Part shown: positions 35,947 to 41,557 of the stretch, one piece after another | Layout: the number at the start of each line of letters is the position of its first letter | Numbering within the stretch: position 1 is the stretch's first letter | Assembly (NCBI RefSeq): GCF_000244895.1 | Contig: NZ_CM001441.1 | Span: forward strand, 5,495,417-5,559,416 | DNA length: 64,000 nucleotides | Source of the DNA: Desulfosporosinus youngiae DSM 17734 | GTDB lineage: Bacteria; Bacillota; Desulfitobacteriia; Desulfitobacteriales; Desulfitobacteriaceae | Direction: 5' to 3' | Program-made: the position numbers and the translations under genes | Notes under the pieces: generated by a model | What the model was told of the DNA's origin: nothing | Seen by the model: the letters and a program-made list of their open reading frames with translations, nothing else | Databases searched by the model: none

Positions 35947-37242
35947 CTACCTGGTTTGACCGTAGGTCTTTTGGGATCTTGAAGTTTCCCATCTCAATTG
36001 AGAGTTTTTTCCAATGCTACCTTTCTTATCTGAAGTTTTAGGAACCGGGATTATGGGAGATACCCTCTCTCTAGAGAAGCTTTGATCATTAAGCCAAGGG
36101 TTTCTTGCTTTATCACCCGTGTTTATCAGAACGTCTTTTTTCTTGGATTCCTGCTCTCTTTTCATAGACTCCGGTTCTTTTCTCCTAGACTCCTGTCCTT
36201 TTTCCTTTCCTCTCTCTGAGTCTTCCCCCTTATTTTTGTTATCGTTTCTCTGGCTTCCCCTGGATCTTTGCTTATCCTCGTCGCTGTCTCTGTCCTTATC
36301 CCTGTCGGCTTTCTTATCTCTATTTATCCCGTTTCCTTTAGTTTCCTCTTTAGCTTTGTCACGTTTATTTCTTTGATCTATCCCCTGTTTGTATTTCTGC
36401 AATACTGCATCCTTAGACTTAGCCTTATCCTGCTCAGGAATCTGCTTTTTAGATAAAGCAGCATAGGCATCTGTCTCCTTCTTCTCTTTAACCTTAGCAC
36501 GAACTTTTGAGTCTTCAAGCAACCGGACCCGTTCTGTCGTCTCTTTTAATTTTTCCGGTTGAGTCTCTACTCCCGCTTCTACAGCAGTCTGCCATAATGC
36601 ATACTCACCTATGGTCAGATCTCCTTTTTCGGCAAGCTCCCGATCTTGAGTTGTTACAGAGAAGAAAGCAACCTGCGGGGTAAATCCATTTTCTTTAGTA
36701 TTTACTGACAGCCAAGAGATGATTTGATTCTCGTTAAGACCTTTAGCGGCTTGCTCTAAACCGTCATCAATCAGCGAAGAATAACCCACTACAACCCAAG
36801 GTTGTTCAGGCTTTAAAAACTTTTGATTGTAGGCCTCGGTTACAATCTGTCCCAAGACTTCATCAATGGGTTTTCCTTTTAGGTCAATCTTACTTATCAG
36901 GCGCTCAGCATCCTCGTTTTGAGTATTAATTTCAAGTACATTCCTCTTGCCATCTATCGTAAATTGCAAACTGGGATTAATATCGACTGAAAGCAAGGCT
37001 ACTGCAGTGGGCACTTGATACAAGTTCCAGCCAACTATTGTCGTTAAAACCATAAGAAAAATTGCCGCAACTCCAACCCAGGCACGCCATCCTTTAAAGC
37101 ACTCAAAGCCAAGTTTCAGTTCAATTTCTTCTCCTACCTCTGCATCTTGTTTTCTTTTAACATGACGAAATGTTCCATTTTTATCGAGGACTGTATAACG
37201 GGATCCGGATTTTTCTAAAACTACAGCTTTTATTTTACTCAT
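35947..37242 (-). CDS. rsgI: Anti-sigma-I factor RsgI family protein
   Basis: 431 residues. The N-terminal anti-sigma domain (MSKIKAVVLEKSGSRYTVL, to about residue 52) is cytosolic, a membrane helix follows (WVGVAAIFLMVLTTIVGWNLY, about 55-76), then a conserved extracellular domain beginning VDINPSLQFTIDGKRNVLEI. The last 190 residues are dominated by Lys, Asp, Glu, Arg and Ser (KDRDSDEDKQRSRG), likely disordered, with no carbohydrate-binding module as seen in the cellulolytic clostridia. RsgI holds SigI inactive until a signal arrives. It overlaps sigI by 4 bp (ATGA). Confidence 0.9.
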   Translation of the reverse strand: MSKIKAVVLEKSGSRYTVLDKNGTFRHVKRKQDAEVGEEIELKLGFECFKGWRAWVGVAAIFLMVLTTIVGWNLYQVPTAVALLSVDINPSLQFTIDGKRNVLEINTQNEDAERLISKIDLKGKPIDEVLGQIVTEAYNQKFLKPEQPWVVVGYSSLIDDGLEQAAKGLNENQIISWLSVNTKENGFTPQVAFFSVTTQDRELAEKGDLTIGEYALWQTAVEAGVETQPEKLKETTERVRLLEDSKVRAKVKEKKETDAYAALSKKQIPEQDKAKSKDAVLQKYKQGIDQRNKRDKAKEETKGNGINRDKKADRDKDRDSDEDKQRSRGSQRNDNKNKGEDSERGKEKGQESRRKEPESMKREQESKKKDVLINTGDKARNPWLNDQSFSRERVSPIIPVPKTSDKKGSIGKNSQLRWETSRSQKTYGQTR

Positions 37243-37952
37243 CCCATCGCCCCCTTTTCCCGCGGGAGGACATACTCCCGTAAATAGACATAATCATTTT
37301 GGTTCGCAAGAAGTAAGGCTACCGCTAAAATATACTTCCGCCCCCGTTCCAATACCTTATGATGAATTTGGGTTTTCAGCCCTAAGGCCTGCATAGGAAC
37401 TTTTCCTTTACGTTCCACCTGAAGCCACAGCTCAGGATCAAAGGCCAATTCTCTAGCTGCCCTCAGTAATGTCTCACGGGAATCTCGATGTTTAGGGGAT
37501 ACTTCTACTAAATCCTGAAAGTTAAGCTGAAAAACAGCCAATGCTTTAGAAAATTGTCGAATTTCTTCCGCTCGCTCAAAGTTTTGTTCTTGCTCTCGAA
37601 AATCATCTAAACCAAGATGAACATCGACCCGGCGCCCAATATCATCTTGATCGAGAGATATTGACTGCCGCAAACGCTGCCTTCGATAATAATCAATTAG
37701 CCTTCGCTTCATCAATACCCGTGCATAGGCTAAAAAGGGTACTCCTTTATCTTCTGCAAATAGGTCAATCGCTTCATTAAAAGCAATCAACGCTTCTGAT
37801 AATTCGTCATCTCGACCCCATTCCAGAGAGCGAAAACATGCTTGGCTAGCAACATGACGAATAAACGCTTGAGATTCGGCTAAGAAAGCCTCTCTGGCTT
37901 CTGAGTCCTCTTTCAAACGCTGCCAAGAACATCCATCTTCCCATTCTGGCAT
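37239..37952 (-). CDS. sigI: RNA polymerase sigma factor SigI
   Basis: About 237 residues. Region 2 reads WGRDDELSEALIAFNEAIDLF and VPFLAYARVLMKRRLIDYYRRQ, typical of SigI. The C-terminal SigI-specific domain (LWLQVERKGKVPMQALGLKT, ILAVALLLANQNDYVYLREYV) replaces a normal region 4. SigI answers heat or cell-envelope and polysaccharide signals through its anti-sigma partner RsgI, encoded next with an overlapping start. The ATG at 37952 lies 8-9 bases after AGGAGG; an in-frame GTG at 37973 lies upstream of that site. Confidence 0.95.
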   Translation of the reverse strand: MPEWEDGCSWQRLKEDSEAREAFLAESQAFIRHVASQACFRSLEWGRDDELSEALIAFNEAIDLFAEDKGVPFLAYARVLMKRRLIDYYRRQRLRQSISLDQDDIGRRVDVHLGLDDFREQEQNFERAEEIRQFSKALAVFQLNFQDLVEVSPKHRDSRETLLRAARELAFDPELWLQVERKGKVPMQALGLKTQIHHKVLERGRKYILAVALLLANQNDYVYLREYVLPREKGAMG

Positions 37953-37996
37953 GTTTTCTTTCCTCCTACTCACCTCTACGAAACAAATTCTCTCTT

Positions 37997-40103: not shown

Positions 40104-40352
40104 CTAGCTTTCTTGGTATTTTTTCCGAGTTGCTTCTCCTCCCCGAATATGCCTTTCTGCTTTGTTCGTCTCAAGGATATGCTTTACTTCCATGGATAAC
40201 TTTTCATTGACTAATGGTAAACGTTCTGTGACATCTTTATGAACTGTACTTTTTGATACTCCGAAGACATCAGCCGTTTGCCGAACGGTTGCACTCGATT
40301 CTAATATGTAAGTCCCAATATCGAGCACCCGTTTGCGTATGTATTCTTGCAC
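40104..40352 (-). CDS. spoIIID: Stage III sporulation transcriptional regulator SpoIIID
   Basis: About 82 residues. The helix-turn-helix ATVRQTADVFGVSKSTVHKD is the DNA-binding part, and the C-terminus is basic (AERHIRGGEATRKKY). SpoIIID is made in the mother cell and turns SigE genes on or off, switching to SigK. The GTG at 40352 stands 7 bases after GAAGGAGGG; the in-frame upstream extension would cross the terminator of the preceding non-coding locus. It precedes mbl as in Bacillus. Confidence 0.96.
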   Translation of the reverse strand: MQEYIRKRVLDIGTYILESSATVRQTADVFGVSKSTVHKDVTERLPLVNEKLSMEVKHILETNKAERHIRGGEATRKKYQES

Positions 40353-40403
40353 GCAGAGCCCTCCTTCGTCCACAACTGTAGTACATTTATATGCATTCTC
40401 AAC

Positions 40404-40430
40404 AAAAAAAGACATCCATAAAAGGATGTC
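40404..40430 (-). terminator. Intrinsic terminator closing the non-coding locus
   Basis: On the minus strand GACATCC, TTTTA, TGGATGTC, TTTTTTTG is a classical Rho-independent terminator. It lies 52 bp before the spoIIID start and directly after the repeat at 40460-40507, and no coding gene ends near it. Confidence 0.92.
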
Positions 40431-40459
40431 CTCACTTGGTAAATACTGTGTTGTTTTTT

Positions 40460-40507
40460 AGAGTGGTCGCTCATGCTGTTGCTATAGCACCAGCAGAGGA
40501 TGAAAAT
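40460..40507. repeat. 48-bp direct repeat, copy 1
   Basis: This copy and the one at 40757-40804 share 37 of 48 bases without gaps, both beginning AGAGTGG and ending GATGAAAAT or AATGAAAAT. On the minus strand it folds into GCTGGTGCTA / TAGCAACAGC with one mismatch. Confidence 0.85.
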
Positions 40508-40756
40508 AGGTCCCTCGGGTCGGGCAGTTTCGCCCACATCCGCTCACCGCAGCATTCCGAGGCTCACCCACTCGCCGGTGCGGGACTCCGCCAAACCTCC
40601 GGGTAATACCTGATGTGAACCCGTGTCTCCGTCTCCCCGCACCGTCTTGTGGGCTTTTACCGCCTCTCCATGCAATGGGTTCGCTTCTGTGGACGAAGCT
40701 GCCCTGCTTGCGGGTCTGGGGATTCTTCCGCGTGTTTTTAGGGGCTTTAATTTTTC

Positions 40757-40804
40757 AGAGTGGCCGCCCATGCCGCTAAGGTGGCACCACCAGAGAATGA
40801 AAAT
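40757..40804. repeat. 48-bp direct repeat, copy 2
   Basis: This is the partner of 40460-40507. Differences concentrate in the middle, where it would form GGTG-GTGC-CACC rather than the longer hairpin of copy 1. Both copies are bordered by T-runs on the plus strand. Confidence 0.85.
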
Positions 40805-40846
40805 GAGACTTTACTTTTTCAAAGTATGGTACTTCATCGACTGCTC

Positions 40847-41557
40847 CTAAGAAGGCCTTTGCACCTGTCCGTCGTGCCACACTTCGTAATGCAGCTGAGG
40901 CTGATCACTTTCTCCTTCAGACCCTGGGAAAAATCCAATCTGCCCCAGCGCATCCTGGCTTTCAACAACCTCACCTTCCTGTACACGAAGGTTATCTAAG
41001 CCTCCATACGTAACAAACCATCCCTCTCCGCAGTCTAAAGTCACCTTCTGACCCAGGAATGCATCCGGTCCGGCAAATACGACCTTCCCTCCCCGTGTTG
41101 CCCGGATCACGGTTCCTTCTGATAAGGCGTAATCTATGCCTGCATGAAAGATGTAATTCTTAAATGCTTTGGAGTAATAATTGCCAACATTTCTTATAAC
41201 CTTCCCCTCTACCGGGCTTGGAAAGTTCTTAAGCTCCAGAGACTCAGCGACTGGCTTATGCTGACCAAATACTAATTCGAGCTCTCTCTCAAATTGACGT
41301 TCTTGTGTAATTTTGTCCAAATGTGTTTCTTGCTGATTTGGCTTAATAACATTAACTATAGTACCTCCTGTGCTCTGAGGAGCAGGTACGGGTATTTCAT
41401 TAGCAGAATTAGCAGACTCATTCATTACACCTTGTGGAACATCTGAGGAACTATTCGATACTGTACCTCGATAACCACTATACACGATTAGACCTACCAA
41501 TACAGGAATAAAACTCCAGGCTAAAATTCGTCCCTTCGGTAATTGCCAACGGTTCAT
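40847..41557 (-). CDS. spoIIQ: SpoIIQ-like M23 family protein with altered active site
   Basis: 236 residues. One N-terminal membrane helix (ILAWSFIPVLVGLIVYSGY) and an external M23 (LytM) domain from about residue 110. The zinc ligands appear kept: HAGID (His and Asp) and the last His of QLHYEV. The first His of the usual HxH is Gln here, and the usual YGH before it reads YGG, so both catalytic histidines seem lost. In Bacilli and Clostridia SpoIIQ sits in the forespore membrane and pairs with SpoIIIAH to form a channel or zipper during engulfment. The place between spoIID and spoIIID fits spoIIQ. Confidence 0.9.
   Translation of the reverse strand: MNRWQLPKGRILAWSFIPVLVGLIVYSGYRGTVSNSSSDVPQGVMNESANSANEIPVPAPQSTGGTIVNVIKPNQQETHLDKITQERQFERELELVFGQHKPVAESLELKNFPSPVEGKVIRNVGNYYSKAFKNYIFHAGIDYALSEGTVIRATRGGKVVFAGPDAFLGQKVTLDCGEGWFVTYGGLDNLRVQEGEVVESQDALGQIGFFPGSEGESDQPQLHYEVWHDGQVQRPS

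Follow-up and report, generated by a model that had tools for sequence, protein, structure and literature searches.

A dispersed element with a conserved rod-like core, probably mobile, between a spoIIQ-like gene and its terminator in Desulfosporosinus youngiae

The window of the Desulfosporosinus youngiae DSM 17734 chromosome that we analysed (64 kb in all) contains, at 40454-40804, one copy of a dispersed element, a unit of ~350 nt in which a rod-like core of ~190 nt stands between a short left end and a right-end hairpin. In its own genome (5.66 Mb, one contig), at least 101 matches to a covariance model of the core were found at E up to 0.001 among the best 150 of 1,233 candidates, the last two of them near the threshold. 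We propose, with moderate confidence, that this is a non-autonomous mobile element whose core is under selection as a folded single strand, probably RNA, and that the window copy was inserted between the stop codon and the terminator of spoIIQ. The original prediction had placed a single structured non-coding locus here, a claim that does not survive the finding of about 100 dispersed copies. It mentioned neither this high copy number nor the 54-nt direct hairpin repeats at 40454-40507 and 40751-40804. A search of the genome with the window region itself gave at least 53 matches (best 40 of 123 candidates), about 41 of them long, and the hairpin-repeat pattern alone, with up to 3 mismatches, matched 70 times against 0 for a reversed control.

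All parts of the window unit are described on the minus strand. The conserved core lies at 40521..40705 (covariance model R1 positions 1-185; cmsearch 202.7 bits, E 5.5e-44) and is the sole model copy in the 64 kb; the rod is nearly palindromic, and the opposite strand of this interval therefore matches the model as well, at 32.1 bits. Repeat finding and blast comparison of copies delimited the segment between the two hairpin repeats, with core, leader and trailer, at 40508..40750. The right-end hairpin of the unit (54 nt) occupies 40454..40507, with a right boundary placed from recent copies in the related genome G041, and it is 78% identical to the second repeat copy at 40751..40804, which would be the right end of a neighbouring unit. 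The left end of the window unit, CACTCTGAAAAA at 40751-40763, coincides with the core-adjoining end of this second repeat. A possible degenerate left-end remnant of a further unit lies at 40809..40825 (direct-repeat family D2, 88% over 17 nt), a short two-copy family that can be chance. Unit bounds were taken from an alignment of 41 own copies together with 20 of the 34 matches in G041; the left end reads CTGCCCTGAAAATAGA in the commoner G041 type and CTACYCTGAAAAA in the window copy.

Those 20 G041 copies include many identical cores with the same or nearly the same ends and, by eye, different flanks; the core runs one way in 13 of them and the other way in 7, with outer ends that are identical or almost so. 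Similarly, the D. youngiae genome has a longer second module, flanked by the same hairpins, which contains the same kind of core in inverted direction (for example, the model match at 453919-454100 minus adjoins that at 454231-454474 plus). One locus (L011) is an array of hairpin, inverted module, hairpin, core and hairpin, and another (L014) has two cores with a hairpin between them. Inserts in the 3' half extend 24 of the 101 own matches to 240-251 bases, against about 185. In other lineages the core is kept and the ends are different. Several further arrangements were observed. A copy at L066 (414-605) has the lower rod without the apical core segment. Many flanks in G041 (L193-L212) are heptamer arrays such as CTGACTC / CTGAATT, which also occur away from the element, and by eye the element often seems placed at a CTG within them. 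In Heliobacterium mobile two copies stand in tandem (apex spacing 234) at a site whose H. chlorum orthologue carries one full and one truncated copy (L242 3985-4393, L221 3951-4480), the outcome of a local duplication or deletion.

DNA similarity detected the element in 20 of the 29 genomes of the genus, and the covariance model in 35 of 45 genomes of the family and 47 of 82 of the class. Of 398 genomes sampled across the phylum, each at least 90% complete, 10 carried it, all in the same class, and about 380 sampled phylum genomes yielded none outside this class (best six candidates of each genome in both cases). An exact core pattern, which misses diverged versions, occurred in 45 stretches among 84,980 species with the own genome left out, all labelled Desulfosporosinus, Heliobacterium, Heliorestis, Acididesulfobacillus or Peptococcaceae. 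Carriage by phages or plasmids was rejected, as blastn against 50,697 phage and 72,556 plasmid records found nothing, nor did a search of viral contigs with the exact core pattern. Iterated profile searches were contaminated by the reverse strand of the near-palindromic core; their matches do not enter the counts, and a single-sequence search keeping the best strand took their place.

The GC content of the element (0.51-0.61 in 200-base steps) is higher than that to its left (0.35-0.42) and right (0.39-0.52), as originally noted, and this region folds better than expected by chance (MFE -141.8 kcal/mol, z -2.8; of 100 shuffles, one did as well). What is conserved is a single long rod. RNAalifold applied to an alignment of 39 genus cores, 16 of them from the own genome (A1), gave a rod of 44 pairs, 18 of which changed on both sides. 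The same rod was recovered from two sets of other lineages, A4 (15 sequences, 22 of 42 pairs changed on both sides) and A5 (10 sequences, 20 of 46 pairs), the members and bounds of which were taken from the model, whereas alignment and folding were done without it. A larger model-fitted alignment (A3), which leans towards structure and the 73 rows of which include seven reverse-strand self-matches, had 91.2% of cells pairing, against 66.0% when shuffled and 31-45% when slid, with 50 of 52 pairs changed on both sides. The self-matches are included in these figures; the helix, G-U/A-C, outer-stem and motif tests used the 66 forward rows. Covariation in the core is thus above controls, as in a structured non-coding RNA family. 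An apical GGTTNAC is kept in 62 of the 66 forward rows from across the class, the GGTTYGG stretch that follows it in 50, and each side of the lower internal loop in 61. The outer stems vary between lineages, yet they remain complementary.

The helices originally listed fared unevenly. That at 40577-40584/40636-40643 covaries, whereas the other three of the four inside the modelled core do not; the remaining one, 40513-40518/40557-40562, lies partly outside the core. The helices 40522-40525/40532-40535 and 40683-40687/40695-40699 frequently lose their pairing in relatives, and the proposed pseudoknot was rejected because its arm 40617-40622/40677-40682 does not covary, being invariant or broken. 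The middle AACC/GGTT part of this arm is nearly invariant and may make a tertiary contact. The absence of a convincing gene from 40404-40846 was borne out. The cores of different copies differ by single-base gaps, so that no reading frame is kept, and a coding role was rejected on this ground.

The core is also the best-kept part of the element. Mean pairwise identity among 37 of the 41 own copies, those with a recognisable right-end hairpin, was 94.2% for the core, 80.5% for the leader and 73.7% for the hairpin (69.1% when the four own copies without recognisable hairpin are included). In the 41 own copies, 115 of 188 core sites were unchanged against 42 expected. All these copies were picked for their resemblance to the window copy, a choice biased towards a conserved core. 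Four orthologous pairs of H. mobile and H. chlorum had core identities of 97, 84, 94 and 93%, with 68-90% in the near flanks and 86-99% further off. In three of them the core (93-97%) was better kept than the nearest flanks (68-90%); in the fourth (84%) it was no better kept than the flanks (81-89%), with genes further off at 86-99%, and the H. chlorum copy had its closest relative elsewhere than in its orthologue. Mean identity between paralogues was 83.7% within H. mobile and 81.9% within H. chlorum. Constraint in place is supported by three of the pairs and not by the fourth.

The neighbours of the window copy are two minus-strand ORFs, one at 40847..41557 and one at 40104..40352 (start codon set by eye), which we take, as the original prediction did, to be spoIIQ and spoIIID. 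A strong match to the spoIIQ-like protein (E 1.5e-48 or better) was present in 25 of the 29 genus genomes, own included, and the remaining 4 had just weak matches to other proteins. spoIIID followed downstream in 23 of the 25 loci, own included, and was missing within the stretch at L100 and L104. From the spoIIQ stop to the start of the spoIIID probe, the own spacer measures 503 nt; among the 22 relatives, 21 have spacers of 111-288 nt and one (L092) has a spacer of 498 nt. When the 25 spoIIQ loci were searched with the model, the element was found at the own locus alone and in none of the 22 relatives. The minus-strand terminator at the spoIIID side of the spacer (40404..40433) is present as predicted, with a hairpin at 40408-40433 in a terminator scan; since shuffles lead one to expect 0.6 such hairpins, its weight comes from conservation, a matching hairpin standing before spoIIID in 22 of 22 relatives (by eye, printed spacers). 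Because it is kept there without the element, it belongs to spoIIQ, contrary to the earlier statement that it closes no coding gene. It is not part of the element, which sits between the spoIIQ stop codon and this terminator and would have displaced it. Insertion in D. youngiae, rather than loss in all the relatives, would be the economical reading.

Other details of this region were noted by eye. The spacer directly upstream of spoIIID (window 40376-40450; L090-L113) is strikingly conserved in the 22 relatives, in the order ACACAGTATTTACC, terminator hairpin, GCATATAAATGTACTA, which exceeds what the terminator alone would seem to need. A second terminator-like hairpin lies right after spoIIQ at L090, L091 and L101, which hints that this place has undergone duplication or some other change. 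Elsewhere in the window, two adjoining minus-strand ORFs at 35947-37973 presumably encode a SigI-type sigma factor and an RsgI-like partner.

A crude gene caller placed none of 64 own copies inside a called gene. Their upstream genes were sense in 19 cases and antisense in 16, and their downstream genes 21 and 21, the rest being uncalled. A bias with respect to the replication fork was rejected (47 of 87, the last 14 of the 101 own matches being dropped; the terminus was assumed and three values tried, with the same result). Among 27 distant loci, upstream genes were 16 sense, 9 antisense and 2 uncalled, and downstream genes 9 sense, 17 antisense and 1 uncalled, so that these loci lean towards the 3' ends of genes; four of the 27 overlap a small ORF call. 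At four loci from low-copy genomes (L134, L152, L158, L159) no common gene neighbours were seen by eye. Inside the window copy, a scan for sigma-70-type promoter-like and terminator-like sites (one copy, one promoter type) found none. The lack of orientation bias relative to genes or replication, together with that of own promoter and terminator signals, argues for a mobile element rather than a cis-regulator or a gene with its own signals, and the lack of orientation bias also argues against a function borne by mRNA.

Whether one strand folds can be judged from the ratio of G-U to A-C changes. When pairs were selected in the same way for either strand, four separate groups gave distinct changes of 17:12, 23:15, 18:3 and 6:5 (64:35 in sum), the third group alone being significant singly (p 0.0007). 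The ratio was 29:18 on A1, 43 to 29 for single changes in the own cores alone, and 230:24 in the model-fitted alignment, which leans to G-U. A pooled realignment of all 66 forward rows gave 37:28 (p 0.16), and in the 41 own copies with hairpins and flanks, a count that also takes in unrelated flanks, A-C exceeded G-U (106:93 distinct changes, 337:268 cells). The G-U excess leans in favour of one folding strand; as this evidence is mixed and single-stranded DNA possible, we lowered our estimate for the RNA reading. According to the mechanism that we propose, one strand of the core must fold into the long rod, whose internal loops are fixed and whose apical segment hardly varies. The folding form would most likely be RNA, arising when transcription of adjacent genes reads through into the element. 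Its apical segment and loops would be bound by a protein, supplied either by the element or by the host, and the complex of core and protein would be the form that is copied or that brings a benefit. The left and right ends would be faster-evolving insertion junctions.

Several other explanations have to be weighed against this one. The element might be REP-like or IS200/IS605-like, moved as single-stranded DNA by a Y1 (HUH) transposase through its right-end hairpin, with the core mattering as folded single-stranded DNA. We regard this as rather unlikely, although a simple pattern recognised the hairpin arm in 27 of the 41 own copies and in 13 of these CTAC, the complement of the REP GTAG tag, follows no more than 12 nt away (G041 copies end differently), no target duplication was noticed by eye, and the mixed G-U/A-C result is compatible with it. 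The own genome has three Y1 matches; however, by eye, Y1 genes do not track the element. Carriers G011 (58 element matches), G033 (7), G035 (21), G062 (7), G069 (5) and G073-G077 (12, 27, 9, 12 and 13) gave no Y1 match, whereas G008 has 4 Y1 matches and 1 element match. Moreover, replication-strand bias is absent, the core and not the hairpin is the best-kept part, and the printed flanks of the distant families seem, by eye, to be without the hairpin. Copying of the core RNA by a reverse transcriptase of the group II intron type appears very improbable to us. A structured core would suit an RNA intermediate, and RVT_1 matches are present in 67 of the 82 class genomes (three in the own genome), but carriers G074 (27 element matches), G075 (9), G077 (13), G058 (7), G061 (2) and G042 (3) have none. 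All these RVT_1-negative carriers are in many contigs, as are several of the Y1-negative ones, and a mover may have been lost after the spread. Both enzymes were rejected as partners, neither tracking the element by eye, and no mobilising partner was found among the Y1 and RVT_1 matches.

That the family is simply decaying, a functionless set of MITEs whose fold is a trace of terminal inverted repeats, we consider improbable. The many intergenic copies, the window copy without a promoter-like site, the lack of an orientation rule in the own genome and the outer stems that differ between lineages but stay complementary would all fit; the class-wide apical GGTTNAC, the excess of unchanged core sites and the core better kept than its nearest flanks in three of the four Heliobacterium pairs would not. 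We give hardly any credence to the original proposal of a free-standing regulatory RNA gene of sporulation time, which drew on the place between spoIIQ and spoIIID and on the terminator downstream: the element is missing here in 22 of 22 relatives, which keep the terminator without it, and about 100 matches lie elsewhere. A tentative possibility is a class-wide selfish RNA, SINE-like, in which an old structured RNA of ~190 nt multiplies to ~100 copies in a genome by means of a mover other than a Y1 transposase or a reverse transcriptase, with the core exchanged and inverted as a module between separate insertion ends. At the confidence given above, we retain the reading of a non-autonomous mobile element whose core is selected as a folded single strand. 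Should the core act as RNA, it would represent a large family of structured RNAs that matches nothing in Rfam 15 and is plentiful among sulfate-reducing and phototrophic Firmicutes, and the about 100 copies in one genome would offer a natural series for finding the partner protein and the mover. Should it act as DNA, it would define a mobile family that is best kept in its interior instead of at its ends, the opposite of the pattern expected for MITEs and REPs.

The original prediction had found no match to RNase P, tmRNA, SRP, 6S or a common riboswitch, and this agrees with the Rfam 15 search, which gave 0 matches at gathering score in the whole window. The best score in 551 bases (E up to 5) was that of ncr1241 on the terminator, at chance level (16.3 bits against 60 needed), and ten other element loci (E up to 1) gave three matches, all far below gathering. 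Of the large structured RNA first envisaged, there stand a conserved, covarying and RNA-like structure and the lack of an Rfam match, but not a single locus ended by its own terminator.

Bacterial MITEs are non-autonomous and intergenic and have complementary outer stems, and the element resembles them in all three respects; unlike them, it is best kept in its interior, the sequence of which is maintained across a class, and its core is also found inverted between the same ends. HEARO or omega RNA, like the element, reaches high copy numbers in some genomes. Around seven element loci, no nuclease ORFs of the type that accompanies it (IscB/IsrB/TnpB) were seen by eye among the printed ORFs. According to part of the published account (RF02033; PMC9755519), it is a structured RNA tied to mobile DNA, as the element probably is; the element differs by lacking an Rfam match. 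At the level of titles and abstract openings, the literature yielded no description of the element, but one of the 250 mobile/repeat sequence candidates (MRSC) from the GC-IGR pipeline (PMC11109978) could be this element, which in kind belongs with these structured motifs as a portion of that study presents them. Like the element, they are multi-copy, with a single long covarying stem, inconsistent gene orientation and an unsettled RNA or DNA form (PMC11109978, same portion); the at least 101 own matches and the orientations of 19:16 upstream and 21:21 downstream among the 64 copies agree with this. Identity with one of them, MRSC-65-2, was rejected: in the same portion of PMC11109978 it has a conserved UYCCGG repeat and occurs in diverse phyla, whereas element matches are confined to one class and, counting either strand, UYCCGG occurs once in 2 of 66 cores and never twice. 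RAYTs and GTAG-tagged REPs, as described in part of PMC3733652, share with the element a dispersed, intergenic distribution and, in about half of the recognised own copies, a short hairpin with a CTAC/GTAG end; they differ in that the element is a unit of ~350 nt with a conserved core and that many of its carriers gave no Y1 match. The element resembles REPs at its right end only, and it stands out by an interior that is the best-kept part, a spread through one class and a core found inverted between separate ends.
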